From a virus, in the IMG/VR virus record IMGVR_UViG_3300034374_000763, positions 1 to 31,870 of that record: a stretch of 31,870 bases of DNA. One strand, given 5' to 3'. Both the position numbers and the translations under genes were made by a program. Positions 974 through 23,103 of this stretch are shown one piece after another (position 1 is the first letter of the stretch; each line of letters starts with the position of its first letter). Below the pieces are notes generated by a model. The model was not told the origin of the DNA and did not search any database. It worked only from the letters and a program-made list of their open reading frames with translations.

Positions 974-1006
974 ATCTATATAACGTATTTTTCAATATTT
1001 TTTAAA
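974..1006 (-). promoter_or_regulatory. Late promoter-like motif, copy 1 (tail unit)
   Basis: On the minus strand: TTTAAA, 15 nt, CGTTATATA, GAT, then the ATG of the chaperone gene. Spacing is identical to three other copies at 18445, 20702 and 23071, but the upstream box is TTTAAA instead of TGCAAA. It lies directly downstream of a terminator whose T-run ends 4 nt away. Confidence 0.65.
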
Positions 1007-1009
1007 AAT

Positions 1010-1041
1010 AAAAAAAAGGGATAACATTTCTGCTACCCCTT
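1010..1041 (-). terminator. Intrinsic terminator closing the early/terminase block
   Basis: In minus-strand RNA, an 11-bp stem AAGGGGUAGCA / UGUUAUCCCUU (two G-U pairs) closes a GAAA tetraloop and is followed by U8. The loop and inner stem (GCAGAAAUGU) recur in the terminator at 18485-18514. Confidence 0.9.
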
Positions 1042-1065
1042 ATCGTAAACTAATAAAAACAAATC

Positions 1066-1182
1066 CTAGCTTATTCCCATAGCCCTGTCCGCTAGCTGAC
1101 ATAAATATAAGAAGGCTACAGTTCCTGTCAAAATTAAAACAAACTTAATCAATGAAAAAACGTAATTTCTAATTGTATTCAT
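1066..1182 (-). CDS. Small single-pass membrane protein, 38 aa
   Basis: A short frame starting MNTIRNYVFSLIKFVL with one hydrophobic segment (about residues 8-27) and ending MGIS. It fills most of the gap between the terminase large subunit and the terminator. The upstream 64 bases are A/T-rich with no clear host-type promoter. Function unknown; its size, single membrane span and position are typical of small phage membrane proteins, but a chance frame is possible. Confidence 0.5.
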   Translation of the reverse strand: MNTIRNYVFSLIKFVLILTGTVAFLYLCQLADRAMGIS

Positions 1183-1246
1183 AATACTTATTTTTAGCTA
1201 AGGTAATACTTTTTTATTAATTAACAAATTTTAATAAATATTTTTT

Positions 1247-2407
1247 TTATCTAATAGCATATTTTCCATAGTTAGGTCTTGATAGCACATTATATGTAGC
1301 ATACCTTAGACTATCAATAGTATGGTCATTTCCTTGTTTAGGCTTATTAAGCAGTTTTCCTGTCCTATCTTCCTCCCACTTGTAGTTACGCATCTCTCTT
1401 ATTAGATTGTCGCTCTGTGGGTCTAAAACTAGCTTGTATCGCTTTAATAAATCTATTCCTGCTCTAATACTGTCCTGTCCTTTTATTGTAGGTCTAACCA
1501 TATTGCCCATTCTCCTAAGCTCTTCTATTAATCTTGGCTCTGCTGAATCTATGTAGATGTATTCGTTTATCGTTTGTTGCTTTAAGAAGTTATGCAAATC
1601 AACAGTAGTCATCATAGTTCTATACAGAAGTTCTTTGCAATAAAGTGTGTAATCCTTTTTATAAACCTCAACTAAGCTACTTGGGTCTACAGAATATCCT
1701 ATGTCCATACCATATCCTACAAGCTCTGCATCTTCTGGTCTTTTGCCTTCTGTGAAAGTAAATATAGTTGCTTTGCTTATTCCTCTAAGTCCTAGTCCAT
1801 AGATTTGCCAGTACTGTTCGTCTGTGTATTGTAGCCTTTCAATTTCTTCTATAAGAAGAGGGTCTAAGAATGGGTTGTCTTTGTATGTGGTAACGTAGAA
1901 GTCACAATCCTCTCTATCTAATACTTTGTCATATATAAAGTGGAACTCATCTGATGGGTTAAAGTCTATTATAATCCTACCCTCTGTTCTAAATAGTAAT
2001 TGATTCCATTGCTCGTATGTTAGCTCGTTAGCCTCATTACAAAACAGCAAATCCCTTTTTCTACCTCTTACCTTTTGTGGGAAGTCTAAAGAAATGAACT
2101 CTACTAGGTTACCAAATAACCTGTACTCTGAATTTGTTTTGTTATGCTCTTCTTCTCTGTAAAGATTGTGCTTCTTTAATATCTCTAAGAAGTCACGCAT
2201 TACAGTAGCCCTAAGAGCTGGGAATGTATTTCTACATATTGTAATTACTTTATCTGTGTTGAGGTTGCAATACTCAAAGATAATCCAAAGAAGTATGTTG
2301 TAAGTCTTTCCACTTCTTGTTCCACCCTGATGCGCTATTATTTTCTTATTAGATTTTTGTAGCGAATGGAATACCTTATTAGTCCTTATCTTCAAACTTG
2401 TTGACAA
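1247..2407 (-). CDS. terL: Terminase large subunit
   Basis: ATP-driven DNA packaging motor and nuclease, 386 residues. Walker A is GGTRSGKT (28-35). A Walker B-like LLFCNEA (about 120-126) carries Asn before the catalytic Glu, where Asp is common. IIIDFNPS (about 146-153) fits the coupling motif, and the C-terminal part has a nuclease-type acidic segment MDIGYSVDPSS. Length is slightly short but in the normal range for terminase-3-type proteins. It overlaps the small subunit gene by 29 nt. It lies at the end of the early/middle block, ahead of the terminator, and not at the head of a packaging-capsid operon as in many siphoviruses. Confidence 0.95.
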   Translation of the reverse strand: MSTSLKIRTNKVFHSLQKSNKKIIAHQGGTRSGKTYNILLWIIFEYCNLNTDKVITICRNTFPALRATVMRDFLEILKKHNLYREEEHNKTNSEYRLFGNLVEFISLDFPQKVRGRKRDLLFCNEANELTYEQWNQLLFRTEGRIIIDFNPSDEFHFIYDKVLDREDCDFYVTTYKDNPFLDPLLIEEIERLQYTDEQYWQIYGLGLRGISKATIFTFTEGKRPEDAELVGYGMDIGYSVDPSSLVEVYKKDYTLYCKELLYRTMMTTVDLHNFLKQQTINEYIYIDSAEPRLIEELRRMGNMVRPTIKGQDSIRAGIDLLKRYKLVLDPQSDNLIREMRNYKWEEDRTGKLLNKPKQGNDHTIDSLRYATYNVLSRPNYGKYAIR

Positions 2408-2723
2408 TCTCTATCTCTATCTTATTAGGCATACCATCTGCTCCTGTTATTTCTTGTCGCTCTACATACCCTCTATACTTTCCTTTGGTTTTTAGGTAGA
2501 ATAGAATCTCATTTGTTTTGCCACTCTTAATATTCTCTAACAGTTTAGATTCTGCCAAGTCTATTAATCCTTCTTGGATTTCTTCTACTGCTTGCGCAAA
2601 GTCCTCATCACTATCCCTCCAGTTATAATATGTTTTTCTAGCTATCCCTGCTGCCAAGCAAGAGTCCTGTACGTTACCTAGATTGTTTGCAAAGACTTCT
2701 AAAAACTTTTCTTTATCCCTCAT
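2379..2723 (-). CDS. terS: Terminase small subunit
   Basis: A 114-residue protein with an N-terminal helix-turn-helix region (about residues 10-35: NLGNVQDSCLAAGIARKTYY, then NWRDSD) typical of small terminases that bind the packaging site. A helical middle and an acidic C-terminus (NKFEDKD) would contact the large subunit. It precedes and overlaps terL by 29 nt, the usual pairing. Start chosen at MRDKEKF; the upstream stretch is only 24 nt from the methyltransferase stop. Confidence 0.85.
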   Translation of the reverse strand: MRDKEKFLEVFANNLGNVQDSCLAAGIARKTYYNWRDSDEDFAQAVEEIQEGLIDLAESKLLENIKSGKTNEILFYLKTKGKYRGYVERQEITGADGMPNKIEIEIVNKFEDKD

Positions 2724-2747
2724 TTGTGTGTAATTTGTGTATTTTAT

Positions 2748-3371
2748 CTAAAACATTCTTATTTGAGATTGATGCTCTTTTATTCTTTTCATAGCTGCTT
2801 CATAGTAATCCTTATCTAATTCGCAAGCTGTTAAATCAAATCCTAAATTATGACAAGCAATTGCTATTGAACCACTACCTAAATGCGTGTCTAATATTTT
2901 GTCTCCCTCTTTAGCATAGTTTATTAATAGCCATTCATATAATGAAATAGGTTTTTGGCAAGGATGTATATCAAAATCTTTTTTATTTAATTCGTTATAT
3001 CTATCTGTATTACTCCAATCATATCTATAAAAATCTACTTTTTTAAGCCTACTATAACTTGCAATTTCACATTTGCTCATATTAGGATGTTTCACATCTT
3101 TATACCAAACAATAGCACCGCCTTTATCATTAAAACAATTATAATAGTTAGCACCCCAAACTATTTGCTCTTTGCTTACCCTTTGTAATTCTTTAAAATA
3201 ATCTATGTTTGGTGTTTTATTATTCCAATCATACTCCCACTTTTGTTTTTTATCTCCTACACCTTGACTAAAGTTTCCTATACCATAAGGTGGGTCAACT
3301 ATTGCAAGGTCAAAGTACTTGTCAGGATACCTAGCCATTAGCTCCATATTATCCTCATTAGTTATCTGCAC
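2748..3371 (-). CDS. Orphan DNA methyltransferase (DPPY, beta-type order)
   Basis: A 207-residue S-adenosylmethionine-dependent amino-methyltransferase (N6-adenine or N4-cytosine). The catalytic motif VDPPYG is at 25-30 and the AdoMet-binding motif is C-terminal (DTHLGSGS, 161-168; usual form is FxGxG), an order typical of beta-class enzymes. HPCQKPISLYEWLL (136-149) matches the conserved segment before motif I. The start is GTG at 3371; the next ATG (residue 9, MELMARYP) would shorten it slightly. No endonuclease partner is adjacent, so it probably protects phage DNA from host restriction or marks it. The recognition sequence cannot be read from the sequence. Confidence 0.9.
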   Translation of the reverse strand: MQITNEDNMELMARYPDKYFDLAIVDPPYGIGNFSQGVGDKKQKWEYDWNNKTPNIDYFKELQRVSKEQIVWGANYYNCFNDKGGAIVWYKDVKHPNMSKCEIASYSRLKKVDFYRYDWSNTDRYNELNKKDFDIHPCQKPISLYEWLLINYAKEGDKILDTHLGSGSIAIACHNLGFDLTACELDKDYYEAAMKRIKEHQSQIRMF

Positions 3372-3396
3372 AATTATAGCTTAATTAATTTTTTTT

Positions 3397-3813
3397 TTAC
3401 AATTTTTCTTCAATCCTATTTTGTTCTATCAATGATTCCTCATACATATCTCTTACTTTGTCGCTAAGTTTTATTACATCTTTCTCAGCTAAGTAATCTA
3501 CTTTTAGCCTTATATATTCTTTTCTCATTTCTATCTTATCATACCCTTGATTCATAAGCATCTCATAGAGGTATTTTTCTAGTTCTCTATTATAACTTAC
3601 ATATATATCAAAATTCTTTAAAGAGTGTAATATGGTAGCGTGATTAAGTCCTATAACTTTAGCTATGTGATAAGGTCTTTTCTTGTAATACTTATATAGC
3701 AAGTGAATGTATAAAGCTCTTGATTCTACTACTTCTCTTTTTCTAGTTCTAATAAAAGGGTCTATTCCTGATATTTTTTGTATTTCTCTTCTTACTCTTT
3801 GTTCTATAATCAT
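3397..3813 (-). CDS. DnaA domain IV-like DNA-binding protein
   Basis: 138 residues. Residues about 22-68 resemble the C-terminal DNA-binding domain of the bacterial initiator DnaA: the basic TRKREVVESRALYIHLLYK helix, then a helix-turn-helix ending GLNHATILHSLK, which corresponds to the DnaA signature GxxDHTTVxHA. There is no AAA+ ATPase domain. The remaining C-terminal half is helical and charged. By family, it should bind DNA at DnaA-box-like sites; it could recruit or titrate host replication factors or mark the phage origin. It sits 9 nt upstream of the exonuclease-like gene, in the replication block. Confidence 0.75.
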   Translation of the reverse strand: MIIEQRVRREIQKISGIDPFIRTRKREVVESRALYIHLLYKYYKKRPYHIAKVIGLNHATILHSLKNFDIYVSYNRELEKYLYEMLMNQGYDKIEMRKEYIRLKVDYLAEKDVIKLSDKVRDMYEESLIEQNRIEEKL

Positions 3814-3821
3814 ATCTTAAT

Positions 3822-4589
3822 CTATAAAATTCCTTCTATATAATATTGGTCTAAGTCTGCTGCTTGTAGAAAATATGTGTCGTATGTTTCTATTGCTTTT
3901 TCAGTCTTTTGTTTTCCATCTAAGTAAAACTCCTCTGAGCAATGATACACCGCTATATCTAAACTGCCTTTGTCTAGTGCTAAGAAAGTAAAGTCTTTGT
4001 AGTCTACCCCAAAGAGTTCACAATAAAGATAGCATTGTACGGAATATCCATATTTCATAGCTGAATACTTAAATGCTTTGATGTCAGTTGTAGTTTTTAA
4101 ATCTACGATTCCATTCTTACCTAGCACATCAGCTTTACCTCTAAAGGGCATACCCATCACTTCTCCTATCATTGGCACTTCAAATTCTGATTGCTGTATA
4201 AGTTGTAATGCTTTTTCGTTTCTTAGGAAAGCATCTGCTAATCTCTCAGCATCTTTTTTCTCAGTCATCGTAAATACTTTTCCGTGCTCTTCTTTAGCTA
4301 ATTTATAAGCCTTTGTATTCTTAGAAGCTACATCAACAAATACCTGCGCATTAAATACATCAGGTTCTAATATAGCTGTGTGAAATAGCCAGCCATCTCT
4401 TAGTGCTTGGCTTTCAGGATTACCATATTCTGTAACGTGCTTGTAAGTCTTAGGACTGCTTAGTAATAGTTTAAGAGAGGAACTGCTTAATGCAGCTTTA
4501 GACAAGTATCCATAATAGAACTCATCTTTTACCATTTCTTTAATCAAATCTTGCTTCTCCCATTGAGAGCCATCTAATAATGTTATCAT
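3822..4589 (-). CDS. PD-(D/E)XK exonuclease (RecE/RecB-like, DUF3799 type)
   Basis: 255 residues. Residues 35-80 (LSSSSLKLLLSSPKTYKH, then GWLFHTAILEPD) and the core GKADVLGKNGIVDLKTT (151-167) match phage PD-(D/E)XK exonucleases: His70, Asp154, Asp163 and Lys165 are the likely metal-site residues, with SVQCYLYCE (about 183-191) as the following Gln motif. Such enzymes resect double-stranded DNA ends for single-strand annealing recombination. The ATG overlaps the upstream stop as ATGA. No clear annealing partner is adjacent, though two ssDNA-binding-like proteins are encoded nearby. Confidence 0.85.
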   Translation of the reverse strand: MITLLDGSQWEKQDLIKEMVKDEFYYGYLSKAALSSSSLKLLLSSPKTYKHVTEYGNPESQALRDGWLFHTAILEPDVFNAQVFVDVASKNTKAYKLAKEEHGKVFTMTEKKDAERLADAFLRNEKALQLIQQSEFEVPMIGEVMGMPFRGKADVLGKNGIVDLKTTTDIKAFKYSAMKYGYSVQCYLYCELFGVDYKDFTFLALDKGSLDIAVYHCSEEFYLDGKQKTEKAIETYDTYFLQAADLDQYYIEGIL

Positions 4590-4882
4590 CTGTTGTATAG
4601 TTTTTCTTCTGCTTTTCTAGCACGTTCTACTGCTCTAATCTTATCTGACCTGTATTCTGAAACAACTTTTAACAAATCATCTCTTTCACGCTTTAGCTTT
4701 AAATTGTAAAAAGCCATCTCGTTCATACATCCCATAATTGTTTCTAGTTCTTGAGTCTTTCTAATCTTAGACCATTTTAGTAGAATAGAGCCTACTAAAT
4801 TGAAATTGCTGATATATTCAATATCCTGCAAGTTCTCCATTTTTAAATAAGTGCGCTCAATGTCGCTTTTAGTATCTATCAT
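4586..4882 (-). CDS. Hypothetical coiled-coil protein, 98 aa
   Basis: Charged, helical protein whose C-terminal half (KLKRERDDLLKVVSEYR onward to KAEEKLYNR) should form a coiled coil. No enzyme motif. It is the first gene after a host-type TTTG/TATATTTG promoter, and its stop overlaps the start of the exonuclease gene (ATGA), so the two are translated together. It might be an accessory factor of the exonuclease, but this is only from position. Confidence 0.7.
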   Translation of the reverse strand: MIDTKSDIERTYLKMENLQDIEYISNFNLVGSILLKWSKIRKTQELETIMGCMNEMAFYNLKLKRERDDLLKVVSEYRSDKIRAVERARKAEEKLYNR

Positions 4883-4898
4883 AATCTTGTATTTTTAA

Positions 4899-4929
4899 CA
4901 AATATAAATAACTTACTTTAAATAGCAAA
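4899..4929 (-). promoter_or_regulatory. Host-type (Bacteroidetes) promoter upstream of 4586-4882
   Basis: Minus strand reads TTTG (4929-4926), 19 nt, TATATTTG (4906-4899), matching the Bacteroidetes -33 TTTG / -7 TAnnTTTG consensus. The start codon follows 16 nt after the box, giving a short leader. A 20-nt core around the -7 box is repeated at the promoter at 8946-8974. Confidence 0.8.
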
Positions 4930-5070
4930 TTATTTTTTTCTGTATATGTTGTAGCAAACCGCTAATCTTTGATTCTCATCTTTAAACTCTTTTCTTACTT
5001 CAGGGTCAGTCATACATCTATCTATGAACTCTGTTTGCTTTTCTCCTGCTTTTGGTTTCGGTAATGGCAT
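4930..5070 (-). CDS. Small conserved-looking phage protein, 46 aa (MPLPKPKAGE...)
   Basis: Starts MPLPKPKAGEKQTEFIDRCM and contains a C-terminal NQRLAVCYNIYRK. This pattern (basic-proline start, FIxRCM, then QRxAVCY) is one I recall from phage proteins and from N-terminal extensions of phage head-region proteases; here it stands alone. It starts 3 nt after the stop of the next upstream small gene and ends next to the -33 box of the 4899 promoter. Role unknown. Confidence 0.65.
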   Translation of the reverse strand: MPLPKPKAGEKQTEFIDRCMTDPEVRKEFKDENQRLAVCYNIYRKK

Positions 5071-5073
5071 ATC

Positions 5074-5166
5074 TTATTTCTTATGTGATTCTTTAATAAT
5101 TCCTATCCCTATCAGCAGTATTCCTACTGACATAATAAATAATGAAGCTGTTATTATATAAGTCAT
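5074..5166 (-). CDS. Tiny membrane protein, 30 aa
   Basis: One hydrophobic segment (ITASLFIMSVGILLIGIGII, about residues 4-23) followed by a basic tail KESHKK. Spacing is 2 nt from the nuclease-like gene upstream and 3 nt to the small gene downstream, so it lies in a tight operon, which is the main support. Function unknown. Confidence 0.5.
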   Translation of the reverse strand: MTYIITASLFIMSVGILLIGIGIIKESHKK

Positions 5167-5168
5167 AT

Positions 5169-5564
5169 TTAAAATTTACATTTATTATTTTTCCATTTCT
5201 TGCCTAATTCATTTATAAATTCTTTTAGAGAATAATATTTTTTAGGTTTAGACCATTCGTTATTAAAGTAATAAGATTCTACATAGCAATCAACCAAAGG
5301 TATATCCGTATCGTCATCCTTGTGATTATGAACTACTTTTAAAGCTATAGAATTACCTTTCCAATTATCCACTAATCTTTCTAATACCAATCTTTGACCA
5401 GTAGGAATATTATTGCCTAATCTTTTTACTTCTCCTAATATCAATATATTATTATCAAATTCAAAAACAAAATCAATATCTGTAGGATGTATTTTATTAT
5501 TTTCTACACCAGTAAAATCTATTGACTGTCTTACTTGTTTAGAATTTCTAATTAAGCTATTCAT
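5169..5564 (-). CDS. PD-(D/E)XK nuclease-like protein A
   Basis: 131 residues. HPTDIDFVFEF (about 27-37) followed by ILILGEVKR (41-49) fits the D...(D/E)XK active-site pattern, with GQRLVLERLVDNW after it as in small resolvase/VRR-like nucleases. Probable DNA or RNA nuclease acting in phage DNA metabolism. It overlaps the next nuclease-like gene (5557-5970) by 8 nt. Assignment rests on motif spacing; distant nuclease folds are hard to confirm by eye. Confidence 0.6.
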   Translation of the reverse strand: MNSLIRNSKQVRQSIDFTGVENNKIHPTDIDFVFEFDNNILILGEVKRLGNNIPTGQRLVLERLVDNWKGNSIALKVVHNHKDDDTDIPLVDCYVESYYFNNEWSKPKKYYSLKEFINELGKKWKNNKCKF

Positions 5565-5970: not shown

Positions 5971-6166
5971 AAGGCAGAGAGTATATTTCGTTTAAATCTT
6001 CTATCCATCTATTTATAGTTTTAGGACTACAAGTACAAGGCTTGAAAAACTTATGATTCATATACTCCGAATGTAACTTACAAATCATTTCGAACTCGCT
6101 ATTGGTTAAAGAGTTACGTTTCTTTTCCCTAAAGTTTGACCACCACAATCTATCTTCTCCTACCAT
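5957..6166 (-). CDS. Hypothetical protein, 69 aa
   Basis: Begins MVGEDRLWWSNFREKKR and contains a Cys pair in KPCTCSPKTINRWIEDLNEI (about 42-61), a short helix-turn-helix-like segment. It is in the tight early operon, overlapping the genes on both sides. It might be a small DNA-binding protein, but no family is recognised. Confidence 0.65.
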   Translation of the reverse strand: MVGEDRLWWSNFREKKRNSLTNSEFEMICKLHSEYMNHKFFKPCTCSPKTINRWIEDLNEIYSLPYDAS

Positions 6167-6314
6167 TCTTTCTGTTTATTTTGATTCGATTTAGCATTTC
6201 TTTTCGATTCTCACAGCCACAATCTTCTATTCCAAATTGAGTGTTTATAAATTCTACTAGCCATTTGATGCCAGTATATTTAAAAATCGTTTCTAGTTTA
6301 TCTCCTAATCTCAT
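6150..6314 (-). CDS. Small hypothetical protein with CGCE motif, 54 aa
   Basis: Starts MRLGDKLETIFKYTGIKWLV and carries FGIEDCGCENRKEMLNRI, then a basic tail. The CGCE-xRKExLN pattern is one I recall from small Bacteroidetes phage proteins. Its start overlaps the sigma-like gene stop as ATGA, and its 3' end overlaps the next gene by 17 nt. Function unknown. Confidence 0.65.
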   Translation of the reverse strand: MRLGDKLETIFKYTGIKWLVEFINTQFGIEDCGCENRKEMLNRIKINRKNGRRR

Positions 6315-6823
6315 AAAAATTTATCTTTTAATAATTGTTTAACTTTCTTGTAAGTGTTGTACAAAGAATAGTAACTTATTCCTGTGTTTCTTGATAATTC
6401 AGATATGCTAATCTCTCCATCTAAAAGCTCAAACACTTTTCTGTCATACCAATATAATTCCTCAAGAGTTTCCATTAATTCTTTGTGTAGTTTTTTGTAA
6501 TCAAATTGTGTTGGGTATCCTGATTCAAATATTTCATTGCTTTGGTTAAGATTGTAATTGTGTAACATTTCATCATCTATAAAATTAACCCTAGCCTCTT
6601 TTCTTTTTAAATCTATAAACAGACTTCTAAGTATTTTGTAGATATAGAAATAATTAACGCTATTGTCGTATTTTAAATCAACACCTTTTTCAATTAAATA
6701 AACCAACTTGACATACATCTCTTGCACTAAATCCTCCGCTGTATCTTTATTGCAACCAAATTCTTGTACAATTTTGCACCACTCTTTATGATTCTTATAT
6801 GCTTCTATAACTAAATCCATCAA
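6311..6823 (-). CDS. Phage sigma-70-like (ECF-sized) transcription factor
   Basis: 170 residues with the two-domain layout of a small sigma factor. Region 2: DTAEDLVQEMYVKLV (about 27-41) and NYFYIYKILRSLFIDLKRK (about 57-75), the helices that bind RNA polymerase and the -10 element. Region 4: RKVFELLDGEISISELSRNTGISYYSLYNTYKKVKQLL (about 129-166, in pieces), a helix-turn-helix for the -35 element. No region 1 or 3. It would redirect host RNA polymerase to phage promoters. Four identical-geometry motifs at late-block starts are candidate targets. It lies in the early/middle block, overlapping both neighbours by 4 nt. Confidence 0.8.
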   Translation of the reverse strand: MMDLVIEAYKNHKEWCKIVQEFGCNKDTAEDLVQEMYVKLVYLIEKGVDLKYDNSVNYFYIYKILRSLFIDLKRKEARVNFIDDEMLHNYNLNQSNEIFESGYPTQFDYKKLHKELMETLEELYWYDRKVFELLDGEISISELSRNTGISYYSLYNTYKKVKQLLKDKFL

Positions 6824-7008: not shown

Positions 7009-7904
7009 ATTTTACCTATTGCTTTGTGTAACATATTCTCTCCATTAATAGTAAACCCTACATTATTAATTACAGAGCGCATCCTAATTGGGCTATCTAT
7101 GCTTGTAGGTCTACCATTTACATCTATATCTTTTATTTTTCTAACGTGTATCATAGAATACATCCAATCAGTTGGGCTACTTGTATAACGATGGCATACT
7201 AAAAAAGAATCAGAGCGGTTAAGGTGCTTGCCCCCTCCTTCAGCATCACTACCCCAAGGGGCTATAGGATGTCCTGAATATTCGTGATTGGCAGGATGTA
7301 ACTTCCTAAGTGCTTCTGTAGCTGCGTGCATACATAACATAATTGTTACATCATTTGTTTTGCAGAACACTCTAAAAGCAGAAGATGCTTCATAGTCGTA
7401 ATCGTGTTTGCTGATTCCTTTAAGCTCTGATTTATCTATCATAAGCGAATTGTAAGGGTCTATCATAAAGCCTTGATAATCCCACGCTTTTTTTATATCC
7501 TGTCCTAATTTTAATAATTGCTTATAATTATATAACGAATTTGGGTCTATAATTTTAAAATGATTGTTTATCCATTCAGCTCTTTTGTTTAAATCTTCAT
7601 CATTTATTTTGTTAATTGGCAATCCTTCTAGGAACTCAATCAACTTTCTAATCAAGGTATGAGCTTCATTCTCGCTAGAATATATTAGCCATTTTATTTT
7701 ATGTTTAACAGAATATAAAAGCATTAAATATAAAATTGTCGTAGTCTTTCCTACGTTGCTATGCCCTAAGACAATATTGTATTGCCCTAAAGAAAGTTTA
7801 AAATATTCGTCAAAATCAGGAATACCTAGCGTATAGGCTTCTCTTATTTCTCCTTTTCTAATCTTATTAAGTTTCTCAATTTGGTCTTTAATGTTTAATA
7901 TCAT
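7005..7904 (-). CDS. RecA-fold ATPase / DnaB-like replicative helicase
   Basis: 299 residues. GQYNIVLGHSNVGKTT (40-55) is a Walker A of the DnaB/KaiC type; a hydrophobic strand ending GFMIDPYNSLM (about 140-150) fits Walker B, and VTIMLCMHA (about 191-199) fits the following sensor strand. There is no N-terminal primase or DnaB N-domain, so it is a helicase core only. No separate primase was recognised; the host may supply one. It starts 31 nt after a strong terminator. A weak host-type promoter (TTTG at 7937-7934, 17 nt, TAACTTAG at 7916-7909) may restart transcription. Confidence 0.85.
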   Translation of the reverse strand: MILNIKDQIEKLNKIRKGEIREAYTLGIPDFDEYFKLSLGQYNIVLGHSNVGKTTTILYLMLLYSVKHKIKWLIYSSENEAHTLIRKLIEFLEGLPINKINDEDLNKRAEWINNHFKIIDPNSLYNYKQLLKLGQDIKKAWDYQGFMIDPYNSLMIDKSELKGISKHDYDYEASSAFRVFCKTNDVTIMLCMHAATEALRKLHPANHEYSGHPIAPWGSDAEGGGKHLNRSDSFLVCHRYTSSPTDWMYSMIHVRKIKDIDVNGRPTSIDSPIRMRSVINNVGFTINGENMLHKAIGKI

Positions 7905-7934
7905 AATACTAAGTTATAAAAAAAATAATTATAC

Positions 7935-7959: not shown

Positions 7960-7963
7960 AATC

Positions 7964-8706: not shown

Positions 8707-8712
8707 TTCTAA

Positions 8713-8945: not shown

Positions 8946-8974
8946 CAAATATAAATAAATATTTTAAAAACAAA
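8946..8974 (-). promoter_or_regulatory. Host-type (Bacteroidetes) promoter upstream of 8713-8928
   Basis: Minus strand: TTTG (8974-8971), 17 nt, TATATTTG (8953-8946), then 17 nt to the ATG at 8928. The -33 box merges with the T-run of the terminator just upstream. The stretch around the -7 box is the same as in the 4899-4929 promoter. Confidence 0.8.
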
Positions 8975-9053: not shown

Positions 9054-9443
9054 TTAGGACACTCCCATCTTTTTTAATTCTTTTTGGTAGTGTTCAATCA
9101 TTTCTTGTAAATCATCAACAGAGAACTTTACAATCTCTTTACTTAGCATATACATCTTTTCTGCTGTTTTTTTTCCTAAACGCTTGCCCATCTCATATTG
9201 CATCCCCTGCTTCATAATATTACAGCTATAGCATTGGGGTCGACAGTTATCTTCTTGCCATCTGGTACTCATATGCTTTCTTGACATAAAGTGCCCGTTC
9301 TGAATATTCTTAACAGGGTATACCCTATCACAAGTGAAGCACTTTACCATTCCTTGTTTGTTAGCGTACTTGTTTCTAATGTACTGAGAAAAAATAATAT
9401 CCAGCTTTTTAACAAGTTTAGATTTAATTGGCTTCTTCGACAC
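9054..9443 (-). CDS. ninG: NinG/Rap-like recombination endonuclease
   Basis: 129 residues. Zinc-type cysteines CFTC (35-38) and CRPQCYSC (67-74) flank NGHFMSRKHMSTRW (49-62), the HNH-like region of lambda NinG (Rap), a structure-specific nuclease that helps RecBCD-independent phage recombination. Lambda NinG is about 200 residues, so this is a short version keeping the core. It overlaps the upstream gene by 20 nt and is followed by a terminator. Confidence 0.8.
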   Translation of the reverse strand: MSKKPIKSKLVKKLDIIFSQYIRNKYANKQGMVKCFTCDRVYPVKNIQNGHFMSRKHMSTRWQEDNCRPQCYSCNIMKQGMQYEMGKRLGKKTAEKMYMLSKEIVKFSVDDLQEMIEHYQKELKKMGVS

Positions 9444-9684
9444 TTGTCATATCTTTTTCATTCATATGCGCCTCTAAAATATACCCATCTATTGGACTTA
9501 TGGAAGTTATAGCCTTGTATATTTTCTTGCTTATAGCTTTGACCTCAGCTTTTTCTTTTTTAGTTGAGTCGATTCCTAGATTCGTGTACATATAACTATC
9601 AATCATTAGCAGCTCATCTACTTTCTTTTTAATGCTCCAAGTCTTATAGCCTGATATCTTTCTAATTTTTTCTAGTATATCCAT
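9424..9684 (-). CDS. Hypothetical protein, first early gene, 86 aa
   Basis: Helical protein starting MDILEKIRKISGYKTWSIKK; no domain recognised. It is the first gene after the repeat-rich gap 9685-9941 and so may start the early transcription unit. Its upstream sequence contains TGCAAA then 15 nt then GTTATG, a partial match to the late motif in which the box merges with the start codon; this is probably not the same signal. It might be an early regulator, from position only. Confidence 0.65.
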   Translation of the reverse strand: MDILEKIRKISGYKTWSIKKKVDELLMIDSYMYTNLGIDSTKKEKAEVKAISKKIYKAITSISPIDGYILEAHMNEKDMTSVEEAN

Positions 9685-9747
9685 AACTTTTTTTCTTTTT
9701 TATTTGCAAGTTATAAATTTTTTTTTATTTTTTCTATATATAGCTAC

Positions 9748-16247: not shown

Positions 16248-18028
16248 TATCCTCTAGGTTTTAAAAATCCTCTATTTTTCATATCTTTTGGTCTTTTAGC
16301 TACTTTAGGATTATTTACCTCAGGAGTAAAGCCTTCCTTCTTTGCTTTATTTACACTTATCTCAGCATTAGGATTAGTAGCATCAGGATTAACATCTTTT
16401 GCCATATAGGTTTTTCTAATCCAAAAGTGATGACAATCTCCTCCTCCTTTATATAGCCAAATATCATAAGTAGCAGCTCCATTAGGTCCCCATCCTGCAT
16501 TAACTGCTCTTTGACTCATAGCTTGAATGTCCTCTTTTCTATAAATTTTCTTAGCAGCTACCATCTTTTTACAAAACTCTCTGCTATTATCTGAGGTTGT
16601 TAGTGGTGCATATTGGTATCTTACTTTGAATCTTAGATTATTTTCTTCTCCATCTTGCACACTCTTTGCATTTGGTCTAGCAATTCCTGTAGAAGCTAAC
16701 CCTATCATTTTGTCTAAAGCCTCTTCTTGGTCGTAATCTACTTTTCTTTCATCAACAAGTACCCAGTTTTCTAAATCTTCTTCTTCTCCAAATTCATCTA
16801 ACAAGTCTGCAAGCCCCTCAGTTGCCTCAGGTTGTTGCTTACTCATCTTAACACCAGTTTCTTCTTCTCTTGTTTCTTGGTCTGTTACATTTTCTAAATC
16901 TGTAAACTCTAAAGGCTGTAACGTTTTGAAGTATAAATTAAGTGAAATACTATTATAAGCTAAGATTTGGTCAAAAGCATCTATCAATAAATTCTGAAAA
17001 GGTCTGATAACTGTGTTATCCATCAAAATAGAGGCTGTTTTAAGCTCTTCTGCGTTGTTTCCTAGCCCTGTGTTATCCTTGATGCCTAAAAGCATAGGAG
17101 AAACGATTCTATGGCTTACTAGGATTTTTCTTGAGCTTTCATCAGATAGGAATTGATATTGATTATGTGCATCAGATAACTGTACTGGCTCTATATTAGC
17201 CTGAGCATCTGCATTATCATTAAAGCTAAGGATAAACTTGCCTGCATTAGATGTGCCAGAAAACTTTTCATAGATTTTATTTTCTATTAATCTTCTTTGC
17301 TCTTCATTTGGCACTCCGTTATTGAAGTTGATTAACATAGATGGAGCTAGACCATTCATTATGTTGTTTAAGTGATAGTTGCTAATTTCTTCTTCTAGCT
17401 CACTATATTGCAAACCTCCTTGATAATCTACAGGCGAGTAGTAATAGAATCCTGCTCTGTAAGGCTTAACTACATATATCTCTATTGATTCTTTGCTATA
17501 ACCAAAGCAAGGTATTCTTTTTGGCTCATCACTTGTTTTAATATTAGCCCAGTCCTTAAAATAATAATAGGCTTCTATATCTCCTTCTTCATTACATTTT
17601 TCTGCTCTTAATGTTTCAATAGGAAAATGCTCTACTTGTGCTATTTTAGTTCTATCCTTAGAATAAATAACTTGCATTGCACAGCTTCCCATCAATTTTA
17701 AGTCATATACTAGTTTTCTAACGCAATCTTTTTTAAGCAATGTTATAGCTTGTGCATATTCATCTGGTTTTTTGCTAGAATCAGTAGCATCTAATCCTTT
17801 TCCATAAATCATTTCAGACAAACCATTGATAGCAGCGTTATTTGTAGGAGAGCCATTGTATCTATCTATCAAATATTGAAAGTAATTGTTATCCTCTCCA
17901 TAAGACACCCATTCTTTGCCTCTTACTTCTTTTATTTTAGGAGAAGTATATGTGCTGAGGTTTACCAGATGTACCTCAGATTTAGGTGCTGATTTTGGAG
18001 CAGTCCTGTAATTATTTACTTTTCTCAT
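16247..18028 (-). CDS. Portal protein with C-terminal extra domain
   Basis: 593 residues. Residues about 1-400 fit a dodecameric portal, through which DNA enters and leaves: EVHLVNLSTYTSPKIKEV, GEDNNYFQYLIDRYNGSPT, then PMLLGIKDNTGLGNNAEELK (about 308-327), a strongly portal-like segment. An acidic linker (EGLADLLDEFGEEEDLENW) leads to a domain (about 425-593) with GIARPNAKSVQDG, REFCKKMVAAKKIYRKEDI and YKGGGDCHHFWIRKTYM. I associate this extra domain with protease or head proteins of other Bacteroidetes phages, so it may be a fusion. It is encoded downstream of the capsid genes. Stop and start overlap the neighbours by 1-4 nt. Confidence 0.8.
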   Translation of the reverse strand: MRKVNNYRTAPKSAPKSEVHLVNLSTYTSPKIKEVRGKEWVSYGEDNNYFQYLIDRYNGSPTNNAAINGLSEMIYGKGLDATDSSKKPDEYAQAITLLKKDCVRKLVYDLKLMGSCAMQVIYSKDRTKIAQVEHFPIETLRAEKCNEEGDIEAYYYFKDWANIKTSDEPKRIPCFGYSKESIEIYVVKPYRAGFYYYSPVDYQGGLQYSELEEEISNYHLNNIMNGLAPSMLINFNNGVPNEEQRRLIENKIYEKFSGTSNAGKFILSFNDNADAQANIEPVQLSDAHNQYQFLSDESSRKILVSHRIVSPMLLGIKDNTGLGNNAEELKTASILMDNTVIRPFQNLLIDAFDQILAYNSISLNLYFKTLQPLEFTDLENVTDQETREEETGVKMSKQQPEATEGLADLLDEFGEEEDLENWVLVDERKVDYDQEEALDKMIGLASTGIARPNAKSVQDGEENNLRFKVRYQYAPLTTSDNSREFCKKMVAAKKIYRKEDIQAMSQRAVNAGWGPNGAATYDIWLYKGGGDCHHFWIRKTYMAKDVNPDATNPNAEISVNKAKKEGFTPEVNNPKVAKRPKDMKNRGFLKPRG

Positions 18029-18444
18029 ATTATTATGTAATCATTATCGTATGTATTCTCTGAAACATACACATTTTTATTTACGCTGTAATATTCATCC
18101 TCTGTTTGGTCAAGAGTTTGGTCAGTACAGAATATTTTATCTTTATAAAGGGATAAAGCTGCACCTTGTGATGCTTCCCAATTATCATAGTTCATATCCC
18201 AAGTTAAAGTGTTTTGTTCAAATAAATTAGGGTCTACAACAAAATTAAAATCATAGAATCTGCCTTCAATAAGATTAAAACTAGCTGTATATACTAGTTC
18301 ATCCCCATCTTGTACTAAACTAACTGTTTGATTAGTTACAACATTAGTGCTATCATCTCTTAAAAACAATGTTGCACTAGTAACATATTCTCTAGGTACA
18401 AATCTTAAAGTCTGAGCAGATGTGCTAGTCGTAAGTATCTTCAT
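18025..18444 (-). CDS. Conserved-looking virion protein, 139 aa
   Basis: Start placed at MKILTTSTSAQTL, 3 nt after the late motif; the longer frame (to 18486) would run through the motif. Beta-rich protein ending ENTYDNDYIII; I recall phage structural proteins with similar ends (YVSxNTYDNDYIII). It precedes the portal gene with ATGA overlap and is the first gene of its late unit. Possible head or neck protein; function unproven. Confidence 0.65.
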   Translation of the reverse strand: MKILTTSTSAQTLRFVPREYVTSATLFLRDDSTNVVTNQTVSLVQDGDELVYTASFNLIEGRFYDFNFVVDPNLFEQNTLTWDMNYDNWEASQGAALSLYKDKIFCTDQTLDQTEDEYYSVNKNVYVSENTYDNDYIII

Positions 18445-18477
18445 ACATATATAACGATAAAACTTAATTATTTTGCA
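18445..18477 (-). promoter_or_regulatory. Late promoter-like motif, copy 2 (portal/fibre/lysis unit)
   Basis: Minus strand: TGCAAA (18477-18472), 15 nt, CGTTATATA (18456-18448), TGT, then ATGAAGATA. Same geometry as the other three copies. It follows the terminator at 18485-18514 with a 7-nt gap and is followed by a run of genes down to the holin. Confidence 0.75.
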
Positions 18478-18484
18478 TAGGAGC

Positions 18485-18514
18485 AAAAAAAAAGGCTAAC
18501 ATTTCTGCTAGCCT
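18485..18514 (-). terminator. Intrinsic terminator after the tail-tube-like gene
   Basis: Minus-strand RNA stem AGGCUAGCA / UGUUAGCCU (9 pairs, one G-U) with GAAA loop followed by U9. The loop and inner stem are shared with the terminator at 1010-1041, including the downstream late motif. Confidence 0.9.
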
Positions 18515-18534
18515 CTTTCTCATCAAAACATCAA

Positions 18535-19062
18535 TTAAGCATCAGGGTCAATCTGAGTACCTGAAGCATCACTTGTAATTACTGTTGAAGTAACAAAGTA
18601 AGCTGGAGCTGTTTCCATAGCTTCAAGTGTCAAAGTGAATCCTGAGAGGTCAGCCATTGCTGCCCCGCTGACGATACTACCATTAGTAACCTCCGCTCCG
18701 TGCTCAAGTCCTACTAGGAAAAAGTTTCCATTGTAATCCTCAATAGCAACGTGAGGTCTAGCAGCAGCTAGTAATTTAATTTCTTCTTGAGTAGACTTAT
18801 CTAAATAAGTTAGAGTAAGATTCAAGGTCTGAGTATAAAAGGTAGTACCATTTTCTCTTGAGGAATTGATTGTAGTCTCTAAGCTAGAATTACCTTTGAT
18901 GTCATACTGATACCAAGTAGGTGTTCCTGCTAAGGCTGTAATCTCTCCTGCGGAAATGGTAGCCGTACCTAGTGTTCCATAATCAGCAAAGTAAACAGTT
19001 TTTAATCCGCCTACTGCTGACTTACAAGGTAGCGACCTTCCAGATGTTAGTGCACAAGCCAT
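18535..19062 (-). CDS. Major tail tube-like protein
   Basis: 175 residues, beta-rich. Starts MACALTSGRSLPCKSAVGGL, with TWYQYDIKGNSSLETTINSS (about 50-69) and GFTLTLEAMETAPAYF (about 142-157). I recall this as the tail tube or a major virion protein in Flavobacteriia phages. It lies between two strong terminators, just after the major capsid gene, which is usual for a highly expressed structural protein. A decoration protein is an alternative. Confidence 0.65.
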   Translation of the reverse strand: MACALTSGRSLPCKSAVGGLKTVYFADYGTLGTATISAGEITALAGTPTWYQYDIKGNSSLETTINSSRENGTTFYTQTLNLTLTYLDKSTQEEIKLLAAARPHVAIEDYNGNFFLVGLEHGAEVTNGSIVSGAAMADLSGFTLTLEAMETAPAYFVTSTVITSDASGTQIDPDA

Positions 19063-19076
19063 ATTTTTTTAGTATT

Positions 19077-19114
19077 AAAAAAGGGCAGGCAGGAATTGTC
19101 CTAACCCACCCTTT
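19077..19114 (-). terminator. Intrinsic terminator after the major capsid gene
   Basis: Minus-strand RNA: 11-pair stem AAAGGGUGGGU / GCCUGCCCUUU (several G-U), a bulged U, then AGGA/UCCU closing a CAAU loop, followed by a run of U. It lies between the capsid and tail-tube-like genes, so probably sets the ratio between them. Confidence 0.85.
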
Positions 19115-19137
19115 ATATTAGACAATTATTTTTTTTG

Positions 19138-20085
19138 TTATGCTAAAGTCAGCAAACTTAAATCGCTACCAATTCCGTACTGTACACCTGCAGTAAATCT
19201 CATCACTACTCTTACGTTTTGAGAACCATCTAAATCAGCCATATCTAACAATTTAACTTCTTGGTGGTCAGATAAAAGACCAGTACCAAAGTAAAGGTTA
19301 GATTTTTGACCTGCTACGATGTGGTCTGAAGGCATTCCAGGTGCAAGAATAACTTTAATTCCTTCAAAAGAAAGAGCGTTACCTTGATTGTACCATTGAG
19401 AACCTTTAGTATCTGTACCAGAAGCACCAACACCATTTGCTGCATATCCTCCTAAGTGGCGGATGTAAGATTGCCAAGCAGCTCTAGGAACATAAATACC
19501 TAAATCTTCTTTGCCATAAACAGCAGTTGGTAAAGCATCTACTACGTTAGAAAGCAAAGTTACGATGTTAGAAGATGAGAAAGCAGTTTCTCCTCCGTTA
19601 GCAGCATCATTTACATCAGCATCAGCAGCCATTAAAACTGTTAATCCATCAAATTCTCCAGCAGTACCTGTAACACCACCCCAAATGTTTTGCTCATTTT
19701 TTTCAGCTACTAACCCAGCAACGTGTGCAATTAAGAAATCACTAAATGCAGGAGGTAGGTTGTCAAATGCAGAATATCCCATTTGTACAGCTTCCCAATC
19801 TGAGTGAAAATCTTTCTTACAAAGCTCTAAGTTTACTTGGAATTCTTCTGGCTGAAGGATTCTTTCAGTTAGAGTGATTGTAGCTGTGTCAGTAAAGTCA
19901 CAAGTAGCATCTTTGATAACGTTTGAATCAGTAGCTACTTTTTTAATAACCTCTTTGTATTTTACATTAGGTTTAATTTCGATATTACCTTGCTCTAATG
20001 TTGGAGAAGATAATAGTGCAGCAGCGATATATTTCCCTGCAAATTCGCCAGCATAAGTACTGGTAATACTAGTTGTAGTTGCCAT
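19138..20085 (-). CDS. Major capsid protein (HK97-fold-like)
   Basis: 315 residues. N-terminal EFAGKYIAAALLSSPTLEQG, a central LPPAFSDFLIAHVAGLVAEK helix (about 109-128), ALPTAVYGKEDLGIYVPRAA (about 183-202, a capsid A-domain-like segment), and a C-terminal VRVVMRFTAGVQYGIGSDL. This matches the overall pattern of HK97-fold major capsid proteins of Bacteroidetes phages. The leader AAATAAAAAATAAAAAATG is very A-rich, fitting efficient translation in Bacteroidetes without a Shine-Dalgarno. Preceded 10 nt upstream by a scaffold-like gene and followed by a terminator. Confidence 0.85.
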   Translation of the reverse strand: MATTTSITSTYAGEFAGKYIAAALLSSPTLEQGNIEIKPNVKYKEVIKKVATDSNVIKDATCDFTDTATITLTERILQPEEFQVNLELCKKDFHSDWEAVQMGYSAFDNLPPAFSDFLIAHVAGLVAEKNEQNIWGGVTGTAGEFDGLTVLMAADADVNDAANGGETAFSSSNIVTLLSNVVDALPTAVYGKEDLGIYVPRAAWQSYIRHLGGYAANGVGASGTDTKGSQWYNQGNALSFEGIKVILAPGMPSDHIVAGQKSNLYFGTGLLSDHQEVKLLDMADLDGSQNVRVVMRFTAGVQYGIGSDLSLLTLA

Positions 20086-20095
20086 TTTTTATTTT

Positions 20096-20701
20096 TTATT
20101 TAAGGTTTGCGATTTTTTCAAATACTCTATCTCGAGTGCTTATAGCTCTTTTTTGGCTAAATAACACTTGAGGTTTTTTTGTTTCTGTTTCAGGATTGTG
20201 CTTCAATGGAGCAACAGCAGGAGCAGATAGTTCTTCTTTTAATTGTGCTTCTTCTTTTGCTTGTTCTTCAGCCATTTCCTTTTTTTCTTTAATCATAGCT
20301 GCTATTTCTTCAACCATTGAACGAATCTCAGCTAATTCTTCTTTTGTAGCATATTCAACAGCAGCTTCTACTTCTTCTTCAACTTCTGCTTCTTTGATTT
20401 CTGCTATCATTCCTTCCTCTGATACTACTAGGATTTTACCATCTTCCATTTGGTACTCTCCTACTGGTACGGGTACACGCTCATCTTCTGTAACGATGAA
20501 CACTTCATTTCCTGATTCAAAAGCCTCAGCTTCTAAAACTGTTCCGTTTTCTAGGCTCATTTGAGCTAATTTAGTTTCTTCAGTTGCTTCAGCACTAGCT
20601 TCTACTTGTTCAGTAGTAACTTCTTGCTCTTTAACTTCCTCAGAAAGCTCAATGCCTAGAAGGTTTTTAATTTCCTTTAGCATTTCTGTTGGATTTTTCA
20701 T
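20096..20701 (-). CDS. Scaffold-like acidic protein
   Basis: 201 residues, strongly Glu-rich and helical (for example EAEVEEEVEAAVEYATKEEL, about 101-120), with a basic C-terminus (QKRAISTRDRVFEKIANLK). Position just upstream of the major capsid gene and this composition are typical of capsid scaffolding proteins, whose basic tail binds the capsid protein. The start follows the late motif by 3 nt. No sequence family is certain. Confidence 0.6.
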   Translation of the reverse strand: MKNPTEMLKEIKNLLGIELSEEVKEQEVTTEQVEASAEATEETKLAQMSLENGTVLEAEAFESGNEVFIVTEDERVPVPVGEYQMEDGKILVVSEEGMIAEIKEAEVEEEVEAAVEYATKEELAEIRSMVEEIAAMIKEKKEMAEEQAKEEAQLKEELSAPAVAPLKHNPETETKKPQVLFSQKRAISTRDRVFEKIANLK

Positions 20702-20734
20702 ATTTATATAACGATTATTGATTTGTATTTTGCA
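20702..20734 (-). promoter_or_regulatory. Late promoter-like motif, copy 3 (scaffold/capsid unit)
   Basis: Minus strand: TGCAAA (20734-20729), 15 nt, CGTTATATA (20713-20705), AAT, ATG. Same geometry as the other copies; placed to drive the capsid genes. Confidence 0.75.
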
Positions 20735-20743
20735 TTTTCGCTA

Positions 20744-21097
20744 CTAGAACATAGCATATATCTTTTTGATATTAGATGAATATGAGGCTAATTCTTTTTG
20801 AATAGACTTTACACTATTAATCTTATTTTGCACTATAGTTGGAATATCTATTCCTAATTCTTTAAAAGAGGACTCTAGTTTTGCTGCTGTTTTTAAAGCA
20901 TTGCTTGCGTCTGCTTCTGCTTTTTTAAAACGAACCTCAGCTTTTCTTGCAGCATCAATTAAATCTAATCCTGCTTTTTCTTGAACATCTAGCAGTTGCT
21001 CAAATTGATTGGTAAAATCATCTACCAAAGCAAGCTCTATCTTCTCTTGTTTTAGCTCAGCCTTAAATAGCTTCTCTGCAATTTCTTTTTTAATCAT
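20744..21097 (-). CDS. Coiled-coil protein, 117 aa
   Basis: Helical, Lys/Glu/Ala-rich, starting MIKKEIAEKLFKAELKQEKI with AEVRFKKAEADASNALKTAA in the middle. Probably an elongated accessory head protein; it resembles 22026-22460 in style (both start with a Lys/Glu-rich helix followed by a coiled coil) but not clearly in sequence. Last gene of the protease unit. Confidence 0.6.
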   Translation of the reverse strand: MIKKEIAEKLFKAELKQEKIELALVDDFTNQFEQLLDVQEKAGLDLIDAARKAEVRFKKAEADASNALKTAAKLESSFKELGIDIPTIVQNKINSVKSIQKELASYSSNIKKIYAMF

Positions 21098-21107
21098 TTC
21101 TTAAATT

Positions 21108-21257
21108 TTAATTGTTACCATATATTTTTCCTATGCCTTGAGCCCATAAAGAGCCATCACAACATTTCTTAGAATAGGTGTTTGAGTCCTTACAAAGGCA
21201 ACCTCTACTACTTCCTTTTGGAGATGTTCTACTAGGTGTTTTGTGTTCTTTACGCAT
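21108..21257 (-). CDS. Small Cys-rich protein, 49 aa
   Basis: MRKEHKTPSRTSPKGSSRGC followed by LCKDSNTYSKKCCDGSLWAQ: four cysteines as CxC and CC, with a GIG end. I recall small proteins with this signature in Flavobacteriia phages. It overlaps the upstream gene by 8 nt. A small metal-binding or disulfide-stabilised virion protein is possible; unproven. Confidence 0.7.
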   Translation of the reverse strand: MRKEHKTPSRTSPKGSSRGCLCKDSNTYSKKCCDGSLWAQGIGKIYGNN

Positions 21258-21879
21258 AATTCTGTGTTTTTTGTATAAAGTATTCTATATCCCAAATAGT
21301 CGATGTACCTCCGTGAGAATTAATACCAACTGATGCGCCATTATCCAAGAAGTTTTGGTCTATATAATAATGGAATACATTATGGAAAAACTGTGGTGTT
21401 GAATTTCCCTTTATATATGCTAAAGCAATTTCAAGGTTTTGTATATTCCCACCACCATTCTCAATAGTTAAATCTAAATGCGTTTGATTAGCGTTTGGCG
21501 ATTGCGCTCTAAATTGCACAGTAAGTATATAAACATCATTAAGGTTGTCGCCTTTTATTTTTTGATTTGCATCATTCTCATAATAGTCAACAAAAGAATC
21601 GCTTGTTATTACATTGCCTTTATTATTTGGCAATATAGTTAAAGTGTCAGCAGCTAAAGAAAATGGACTTGCCTCTGTATACTCTGTGTCCATATATCTA
21701 CCCCATCCTAATCCACTATAAGCACCACCTTGAGGATAAATCTTTCTCCATTCTCCATTCCAAACAGTATAGACCCCTGTTGAGGTAGTAACATAAGCTC
21801 CCTCCTCTATCTGATACTGGTTTCTTATCTCATCAGTATCTACATCTGCTTGTACCTTGTATGAAGTGTTTTTTATCAT
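21250..21879 (-). CDS. Beta-rich virion protein (head fibre/decoration-like), 209 aa
   Basis: N-terminal YVTTSTGVYTVWNGEWRKIY, then GGAYSGLGWGRYMDTEYTEA, and a C-terminal IWDIEYFIQKTQNYA. The pattern (a short tip-type N-terminus and a jelly-roll-like C-terminal domain with FHNVFHYYIDQNFL) is typical of phage surface or decoration proteins. Sits between protease and capsid genes. Role inferred from position. Confidence 0.6.
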   Translation of the reverse strand: MIKNTSYKVQADVDTDEIRNQYQIEEGAYVTTSTGVYTVWNGEWRKIYPQGGAYSGLGWGRYMDTEYTEASPFSLAADTLTILPNNKGNVITSDSFVDYYENDANQKIKGDNLNDVYILTVQFRAQSPNANQTHLDLTIENGGGNIQNLEIALAYIKGNSTPQFFHNVFHYYIDQNFLDNGASVGINSHGGTSTIWDIEYFIQKTQNYA

Positions 21880-22010
21880 CTACCTTGCCCTCTGTATTTT
21901 TTCTTATAGTTCTTTGAAGATTTTAAGCTGCTCATCTTAGTTTTAGAATGAACACTAGGTCTGCTAACCTTTGGCTTTTTTCTATAGTTTGATATTTGAA
22001 TCTTAGCCAT
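21876..22010 (-). CDS. Small basic protein, 44 aa
   Basis: MAKIQISNYRKKPKVSRPSV then a Lys/Ser/Tyr-rich end KNYKKKYRGQGR. ATGA overlap with the next gene. The strong positive charge suggests nucleic-acid contact or a virion basic peptide; I recall very similar small proteins in this phage group. Function unknown. Confidence 0.65.
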   Translation of the reverse strand: MAKIQISNYRKKPKVSRPSVHSKTKMSSLKSSKNYKKKYRGQGR

Positions 22011-22025
22011 TAGCTTGCTGTGTTT

Positions 22026-22460
22026 TTAAAAAGGAAGTTCATTTAAGAAATTAAAATCTAATTTTTTAATTTCATTTTTTAAAATTTCTATTTTTCTTAA
22101 ATCTATGTCCTTATTTTCTATTCCTAAATCTTTCATTTTTGCGATTGTTGTTTTTGCATCTGATTCAGTTTTATTTAATTCCTTAGTTAATTCAGATAGT
22201 TTTTTCTTGATTTGAGGTATTATATTTTTATAAGGTTTTATTAATTTATCCTTTTTTGCTTGCAAACTAATTATTTCACTACTTAACTCAGCTACATCAT
22301 AATATGTTTTCTTAAAGGATTCATATAATCTTCCCTCTCCTTTAATTTCTGTTTCTAATTGATTTAAACTTTTTATAACTTCATTGATAGTAGCCAACTC
22401 CACTTTCTCAAGTTTCTCCTCTGATAGCTTTGTAAAGATTTTTTGTAGTTCTGGTTTCAT
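22026..22460 (-). CDS. Coiled-coil protein, 144 aa
   Basis: Almost fully helical, Lys/Glu/Leu-rich: starts MKPELQKIFTKLSEEKLEKV, with KKLSELTKELNKTESDAKTT in the C-terminal part. Directly follows the protease gene, in the place where scaffold or accessory head proteins occur. No motif. Confidence 0.6.
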   Translation of the reverse strand: MKPELQKIFTKLSEEKLEKVELATINEVIKSLNQLETEIKGEGRLYESFKKTYYDVAELSSEIISLQAKKDKLIKPYKNIIPQIKKKLSELTKELNKTESDAKTTIAKMKDLGIENKDIDLRKIEILKNEIKKLDFNFLNELPF

Positions 22461-22470
22461 CGTAAATTAT

Positions 22471-23070
22471 TTAATCTTTTAGTAAATCTGTGAGTTTATT
22501 AATAATATCTTGTGCTTCTAATTCTTCTTTGCTCATTCCTACAGCATCTTGAGGTCTTTCCATTTTATCAGCAAAATATCCCTCAATAGAAAAGCCTTTT
22601 ACCTTTCCTGTTTTAACATAGTTTTCCCAAACATCATCATTGTTTACCTTTACAGCACCCATCCAAGTTCCAATAGGCACTTCCATACCATATTTTCTGC
22701 TCTTATCGTGTACCTCATCTTCTACTATCCAAGATTCTACTAAGCTAAGTCCTGATAGTTCGTATTGGTGTTCTAATGTTGAGTTGTTTTGATTGCCCTT
22801 CATTAAATACATTTGAGAGGCTTTTAAGACAGTATCTTTTGAAAAGTATATATAGTACTCATCTTCTCCTGAACGTCTGTATATGGGCTTGTTAGGCACT
22901 AATAACGCACCCATAAGGATACGCTTTTCTTTATTTACCTCTGCTAGTTTTATTTCTTCTGCTTTTAAAGCAACAAAATCCTCTTCTATAGCTGGGTTTT
23001 CTACAACAGAGATAGCTTCGATTCCTGCTGCTTCTTGTTCTTCGTCTAAGATTAGTTCTACTATTCTCAT
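22471..23070 (-). CDS. XkdF-like prohead protease
   Basis: 199 residues. EKRILMGALLVPNKPIYRRS (48-67), EYYIYFSKDTVLKAS (71-85) and GNQNNSTLEHQYELSGLSLV with VESWIVED (92-118) match the phage serine protease XkdF group. Likely catalytic residues are His101 and Ser113. It would cut the scaffold and capsid protein during head maturation. It lies after the tape measure and well ahead of the capsid gene (with four helical or small genes between), and away from the portal. Start is 3 nt after the late motif. Confidence 0.85.
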   Translation of the reverse strand: MRIVELILDEEQEAAGIEAISVVENPAIEEDFVALKAEEIKLAEVNKEKRILMGALLVPNKPIYRRSGEDEYYIYFSKDTVLKASQMYLMKGNQNNSTLEHQYELSGLSLVESWIVEDEVHDKSRKYGMEVPIGTWMGAVKVNNDDVWENYVKTGKVKGFSIEGYFADKMERPQDAVGMSKEELEAQDIINKLTDLLKD

Positions 23071-23103
23071 AATTATATAACGTTTATCTTAAATTAATTT
23101 GCA
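23071..23103 (-). promoter_or_regulatory. Late promoter-like motif, copy 4 (protease unit)
   Basis: Minus strand: TGCAAA (23103-23098), 15 nt, CGTTATATA (23082-23074), ATT, ATG. Same geometry as the other copies. It occupies nearly the whole 35-nt gap after the tape measure stop. Confidence 0.75.

Follow-up and report, generated by a model that had tools for sequence, protein, structure and literature searches.

The phage carried by the DNA analysed here (the window, a 31,870-base virus record from IMG/VR whose genes lie nearly all on the minus strand), probably a marine Bacteroidota phage, very probably encodes an ECF-type sigma factor that directs the host core RNA polymerase to four leaderless late promoters, each opening an operon of virion or lysis genes. 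In the mechanism that we propose, the sigma factor would be made early from host sigmaA-type promoters, would bind the host core RNA polymerase and would bring the core to the four late promoters. Each late promoter would consist of TnCAAAA at about -33 to -27, a 14-nt spacer, CGTTATATA at -12 to -4, a T at -1 and an A at +1; the first transcribed base would be the A of the ATG, and the late mRNAs would be leaderless. We infer core binding, promoter recognition by the phage sigma, the exact start and the early and late timing from the sequence. The original prediction had already attributed the four sites to the sigma-like protein, and this attribution is supported by the conservation of the sites, their co-occurrence with the sigma gene and the way in which the box changes along with the sigma clade. 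What that prediction missed is that the 3-nt gap between box and ATG predicts a leaderless mRNA.

Predicted late promoters and genome layout

The motif that was originally described, TGCAAA-N15-CGTTATATA-N3-ATG, is exact at 23070, 20701 and 18444, and a version with TTTAAA as the first box (two mismatches) occurs at 973 (Table 1). The geometry of that description stands, but its wording does not, because the third N is always T and the -35 box is better written as TnCAAAA. The four sites directly adjoin the ORFs that they open (199, 201, 139 and 216 aa, from 23070 down to 973) and score 26-31 bits with a weight matrix, and dinucleotide shuffles gave 0.08 matches to the window motif at up to three mismatches, with a maximum of 1. 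On the coding strand of the window, CGTTA-Nk-ATG occurs four times with k=7, three times with k=6 and zero or one time with the other gaps tried; CGTTA-N7-ATG on the opposite strand has zero occurrences. No copy of the motif is found at the start codons of early genes, as had been claimed, and the coding DNA of the window holds none of equal quality. The only other match within three mismatches (7523-7558) is coding, ends in ATA and scores 18.0 bits, and the -10 box has another coding copy at 24913, which scores 21.5 bits. We rejected the copies at 7525 and 24913 as promoters because they are coding and lower-scoring and open no ORF.

These two minus-strand copies of CGTTATATA recur in the relatives G097, G100 and G102, which is probably a matter of protein-level conservation. 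The copy at 7525 lies inside a helicase-like gene, approximately 700 nt upstream of the sigma gene, and an alternative reading is that it may serve autoregulation of sigma.

A -10 element at -12 to -4 places the expected start on the A of the ATG, which predicts a leaderless mRNA. This prediction rests on the fixed spacing together with the T at -1 and the A at +1, and the true +1 may lie one or two nucleotides away.

According to the original prediction, the four sites divide the late genes into four units that together cover all virion and lysis genes, one of them running through the join of the window ends. The join is supported, since the interval equivalent to 973-23070 is contiguous (9.5 kb) in the relative G097, but the terminase lies outside all four units. 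The proteins of 22471-23070 and 20096-20701 match the first and second halves of phrog_24921, and the protease-scaffold protein appears to be split into two genes with others between them, each with its own late promoter. Both of the host-type promoters that had been placed in the early half were recovered as TATATTTG boxes with TTG, at 8953 and 4906 on the minus strand. In addition, TAACTTGC at 9690-9720 (minus strand), before the early gene 9424-9684, resembles the flavobacterial SM5 box TAnnTTGY (PMC9723704). The protein of 3397-3813 has a weak match to a DnaA C-terminal HTH and is possibly a replication or regulatory DNA-binding protein.

Table 1. Promoters, terminator and sigma gene of the window; the strength of each assignment is given in the text
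Feature	Position	Strand	Context
Late promoter, TTTAAA variant of -35 box	971..1006	-	Before gene 323-973 (phrog_32199, tail-related); kept in all tail-gene orthologs
Intrinsic terminator, 11-bp stem and T-tract	1016..1041	-	Between terminase and the 973 late promoter
Host sigmaA-type promoter, TTG-N19-TATATTTG	4899..4928	-	Upstream of early gene 4586-4882
Predicted ECF-type sigma factor (169 aa), with a flexible linker between sigma2 and sigma4	6311..6820	-	ATG at 6820
Host sigmaA-type promoter, TTG-N17-TATATTTG	8946..8973	-	Upstream of early genes and the sigma gene
Late promoter	18442..18477	-	Before 139-aa gene 18025-18444, first of the portal / tail fibre / lysis unit
Late promoter	20699..20734	-	Before gene 20096-20701, scaffold-like, second half of phrog_24921
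Late promoter	23068..23103	-	Before gene 22471-23070, head maturation protease

The sigma factor

The start of the sigma gene, first placed at TTG 6823, is corrected to ATG 6820. The earlier description of its product as an ECF-sized sigma-like protein is borne out, and HMM searches and fold comparison back its assignment to the ECF type, as does the CGT -10 box reported for ECF-type promoters in Flavobacterium psychrophilum (PMC9723704). The protein matches Pfam Sigma70_r2 with 24.6 bits against a cut-off of 24 and NCBIfam TIGR02937 (sigma70-ECF) with E 8.9e-10 over positions 14-164 of 165, although the score of the latter match, 38.4 bits, falls just below the curated cut-off of 42.9. The AlphaFold model (pLDDT 80.6, pTM 0.44) has two helical domains and a disordered linker at 89-105. 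In a Foldseek search against the PDB, the top matches are ECF sigma subunits, namely the mycobacterial SigH and SigL complexes and E. coli SigE (E 1e-4 to 3e-3, TM approximately 0.38, with the relative placement of the domains unsure); a profile search with sigma against PDB sequences gave no match. Two features of the ECF group were found, sigma2 and sigma4 as the only domains, with a short linker, and a bipartite promoter with a CGT-type -10. Sequence and model thus support a phage-encoded two-domain ECF-type sigma factor, for which core binding is predicted.

Relatives of this sigma number more than 570 in viral contigs. In bacterial genomes no relative was confirmed, so no prophage form was found and no host is assigned to the window. 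A search of INPHARED gave one weak match only at E<0.01, and the gut phage MT835475, a weak sigma match, shows no promoter family of this type over the 40 kb that we looked at.

Conservation of the promoter among related contigs

We trained a weight matrix without the ATG and without the three preceding bases and scanned 32 contigs. The scan found 116 coding-strand sites versus 2 antisense, which speaks against random copies of equal quality. The leader length is 0 at 79 of the 116 sites, that is, they stand exactly at the ATG, and 17 sites have leaders of 1-4 nt. Among the 37 sites that are not leaderless, +1 is A in 34 and -1 is T in 26. The pattern CGTTATATA-N3-ATG is present in 46 of 50 contigs, on a single strand in each and with an N3 that always ends in T; the reversed control pattern has zero matches in all 50.

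When contigs were selected by sigma, 25 of 29 had an exact CGTTATATA-N3-ATG, and the four exceptions carry variants: CGTTATATA with a 12-nt leader, CGTTATATA before a TerS-like gene, CGTTATACT and CGTTAAATA in a third contig, and in the fourth a sigma clade whose box has changed to TATTATATA. This set addresses the objection that relatives might keep sigma and lose the motif; some very distant carriers of sigma do show different arrangements. Orthologs of the four first genes, identified by HMM and blind to the motif, lead to a similar picture. With box variants included, the promoter precedes 58 of 58 tail-gene orthologs from sigma-bearing contigs, and it precedes nearly all orthologs of the protease and 139-aa genes and most of those of the scaffold gene.

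At G091:17884, G064:6940, G121:13971 and G118:15117, a small-terminase-like gene (MDKRKNNGG...) is preceded by a further CGTTATATA promoter at a distance of approximately 22-29 nt. This promoter has a real leader, and the TerS gene of the window is without such a site.

The reciprocal test used contigs of at least 20 kb picked solely by AAA-N15-CGTTATATA-NNT-ATG. The correlation of motif and sigma gene that had been proposed as a check was observed: 15 of 17 such contigs encode sigma, compared with 7 of 22 contigs picked by a shifted-gap control pattern (Fisher p 0.0008), although this control is not neutral: among its matches is a clade whose promoters have short leaders. The control contigs with sigma that we inspected have this type of promoter too, followed by a short leader. 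The motif occurs without a sigma match in one contig, G090, which is 25 kb long and probably partial. Relatives without sigma were seldom found, with only G122 (a 28-kb contig, maybe incomplete) having neither a sigma match nor the motif.

A further set comprised 73 loci selected by portal, chosen by neither sigma nor motif. CGTT stands exactly at -12 of the gene preceding the portal in 43 of the 73 loci (25 of 48 distinct sequences), and the box endings are lineage-specific. Among far relatives, L559/G137 and L528/G131 have kept sigma and have other boxes and short leaders. In L528 (G131), a repeated GTTTTAAAATAAAA element occurs 3-10 nt before the start codons of many genes and is possibly another lineage-specific promoter code.

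Covariation of sigma clade and -10 box

The sigma clade around L058 has 'FLQLKKK' instead of 'xDLKRK' in region 2.4 and TATTATATA at the tail gene. In another clade, 'YLNIHKKE' goes with TTATATATA, and the remaining sigmas go with CGTTATATA or near variants of it. In the box-variant clades, the distance to the ATG and the T at -1 are unchanged. At the level of residues, D70/R73 prevails in the CG class, against D70Q/R73K in the TA class and D70N/R73K in the TT class. On the sigma tree, the box labels require three changes, which is the minimum. These patterns support the view that box and sigma clade change in step, as coevolution of a reader and its sites would give. However, the tree groups TA and TT as sister clades with weak support (80), so the box changed independently only once or twice, and common descent by itself could be enough to explain the pattern. 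A strict residue rule is loose as well, because the distant sigmas G080 (N70, R73) and G065 (D70, K73) retain CG.

Alternative explanations

It could be argued that the sites are promoters read by a host ECF sigma and that the phage sigma has another role. The original prediction had compared the CGTT of the downstream box with ECF -10 elements, and a CGT -10 box is indeed reported for ECF-type promoters of F. psychrophilum, where motif SM6 is attributed to ECF sigmas (PMC9723704). However, we consider this reading quite unlikely, since the distribution of box variants agrees exactly with the phage sigma tree (three changes, the minimum), motif-selected contigs nearly always encode the phage sigma, and the full motif has just 10 scattered matches in 257 Gb of bacterial genomes, which we treat as chance.

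The boxes might instead be operators at which a different phage regulator works together with host sigmaA; at the start codon, TAnnTATG would then stand in for the sigmaA -7 box TAnnTTTG. Inspection of the sites shows that the two sequences agree at 7 of 8 positions. Under this arrangement, transcription would start inside the gene, which led us to reject the host-sigmaA reading of TAnnTATG, and no TTG stands at the right distance upstream. Moreover, the sites that bear leaders retain CGTTATATA and the +1 A and lose the ATG, and the spacing of -35 and -10 is rigid, as for a sigma; we therefore hold this arrangement to be very improbable. A third idea is that the sequence is a translation-initiation signal, an AT-rich context before the ATG. 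That the sites nearly always adjoin start codons and that flavobacteria lack Shine-Dalgarno sites (PMC6847099) would agree with such a signal, but a second box near -30, a GC-containing CGTT core, the restriction of the sites to operon starts and an ATG that lies 1-29 nt further downstream at some sites make it extremely hard to credit. Recognition of the four sites by the phage sigma is the reading that we retain.

Comparison with known systems

Leaderless mRNAs represent 5.5% of transcripts in F. psychrophilum (PMC9723704), most transcripts of F. johnsoniae have leaders longer than 10 nt (PMC6847099), and approximately 3.7% of the 5' UTRs of B. thetaiotaomicron are shorter than 10 nt (PMC7366714). 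On these figures, a late programme of mostly leaderless mRNA would be unusual, and the promoters predict systematic leaderless translation in hosts where such mRNAs are rare. We can also imagine, with considerable doubt, a large clade of marine Bacteroidota phages with a self-contained late programme, in which each fast-evolving sigma and its promoters evolve together as a private code and almost every late mRNA lacks a leader. If this were true, leaderless late mRNA may divert host ribosomes to a kind of mRNA seldom made by the host, and transcriptional and translational takeover would be combined.

Transcription control in marine Bacteroidota phages appears to be little studied, and our search of openly readable papers found none on this promoter or sigma. 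Phage ECF sigmas for late genes are already known; the type of sigma and promoter in the window is new and widespread. With it, the late-promoter code of many metagenomic phages becomes readable, and late genes and operon starts can be annotated at base resolution. It also provides natural matched sets of sigma and promoter (CG, TA, TT and CGTTAATA) for studying how ECF sigmas read the -10 element.

In phiEco32 and Kuravirus-type phages, an ECF-type sigma directs the middle and late genes (PMC4331800, PMC7881722). The phiEco32 sigma, gp36, resembles that of the window in serving a phage-specific promoter while the early genes depend on host sigma70 (PMC4331800, PMC7881722). However, the phiEco32 consensus, tAATGTATA, is unlike that of the window, and the host phylum is different. 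With gp36, hmmsearch gave no match to our A1 sigma profile, and blastp was at chance level (E above 0.6). T4 gp55 is a more distant analogue than the phiEco32-type sigmas; it is likewise a sigma-family subunit that gives the host core late-promoter specificity, but its activation involves gp33 and the sliding clamp gp45, and it is not an ECF sigma (PMC2988020). The SM6 promoters of Flavobacterium share the CGT core in the -10 region with the window, but they are host-encoded and chromosomal, in a host with few leaderless transcripts (PMC9723704).

The closest isolates by portal are the Nonlabens phages P12024S and P12024L (Inhavirus), at 38.7%. Their gp33/gp35 are annotated with Sigma-70 region 2, and gp33 of P12024S is matched by the A1 profile with E 8e-9. 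P12024S has seven CGTTA-N7-ATG sites, six of which lie directly upstream of annotated genes with CGTTA exactly 12 nt before the start, and AAAACAAA stands near -34 at most of them. The cultured pair of P12024S and Persicivirga sp. IMCC12024 makes the pairing of promoter and sigma directly testable. These phages thus resemble the window in a homologous portal, a distant sigma and a CGTTA box at -12 from the ATG, and they differ from it in having AAAACAAA as the -35 and CGTTAATA as the -10 element of a late promoter motif that is unannotated in their record.
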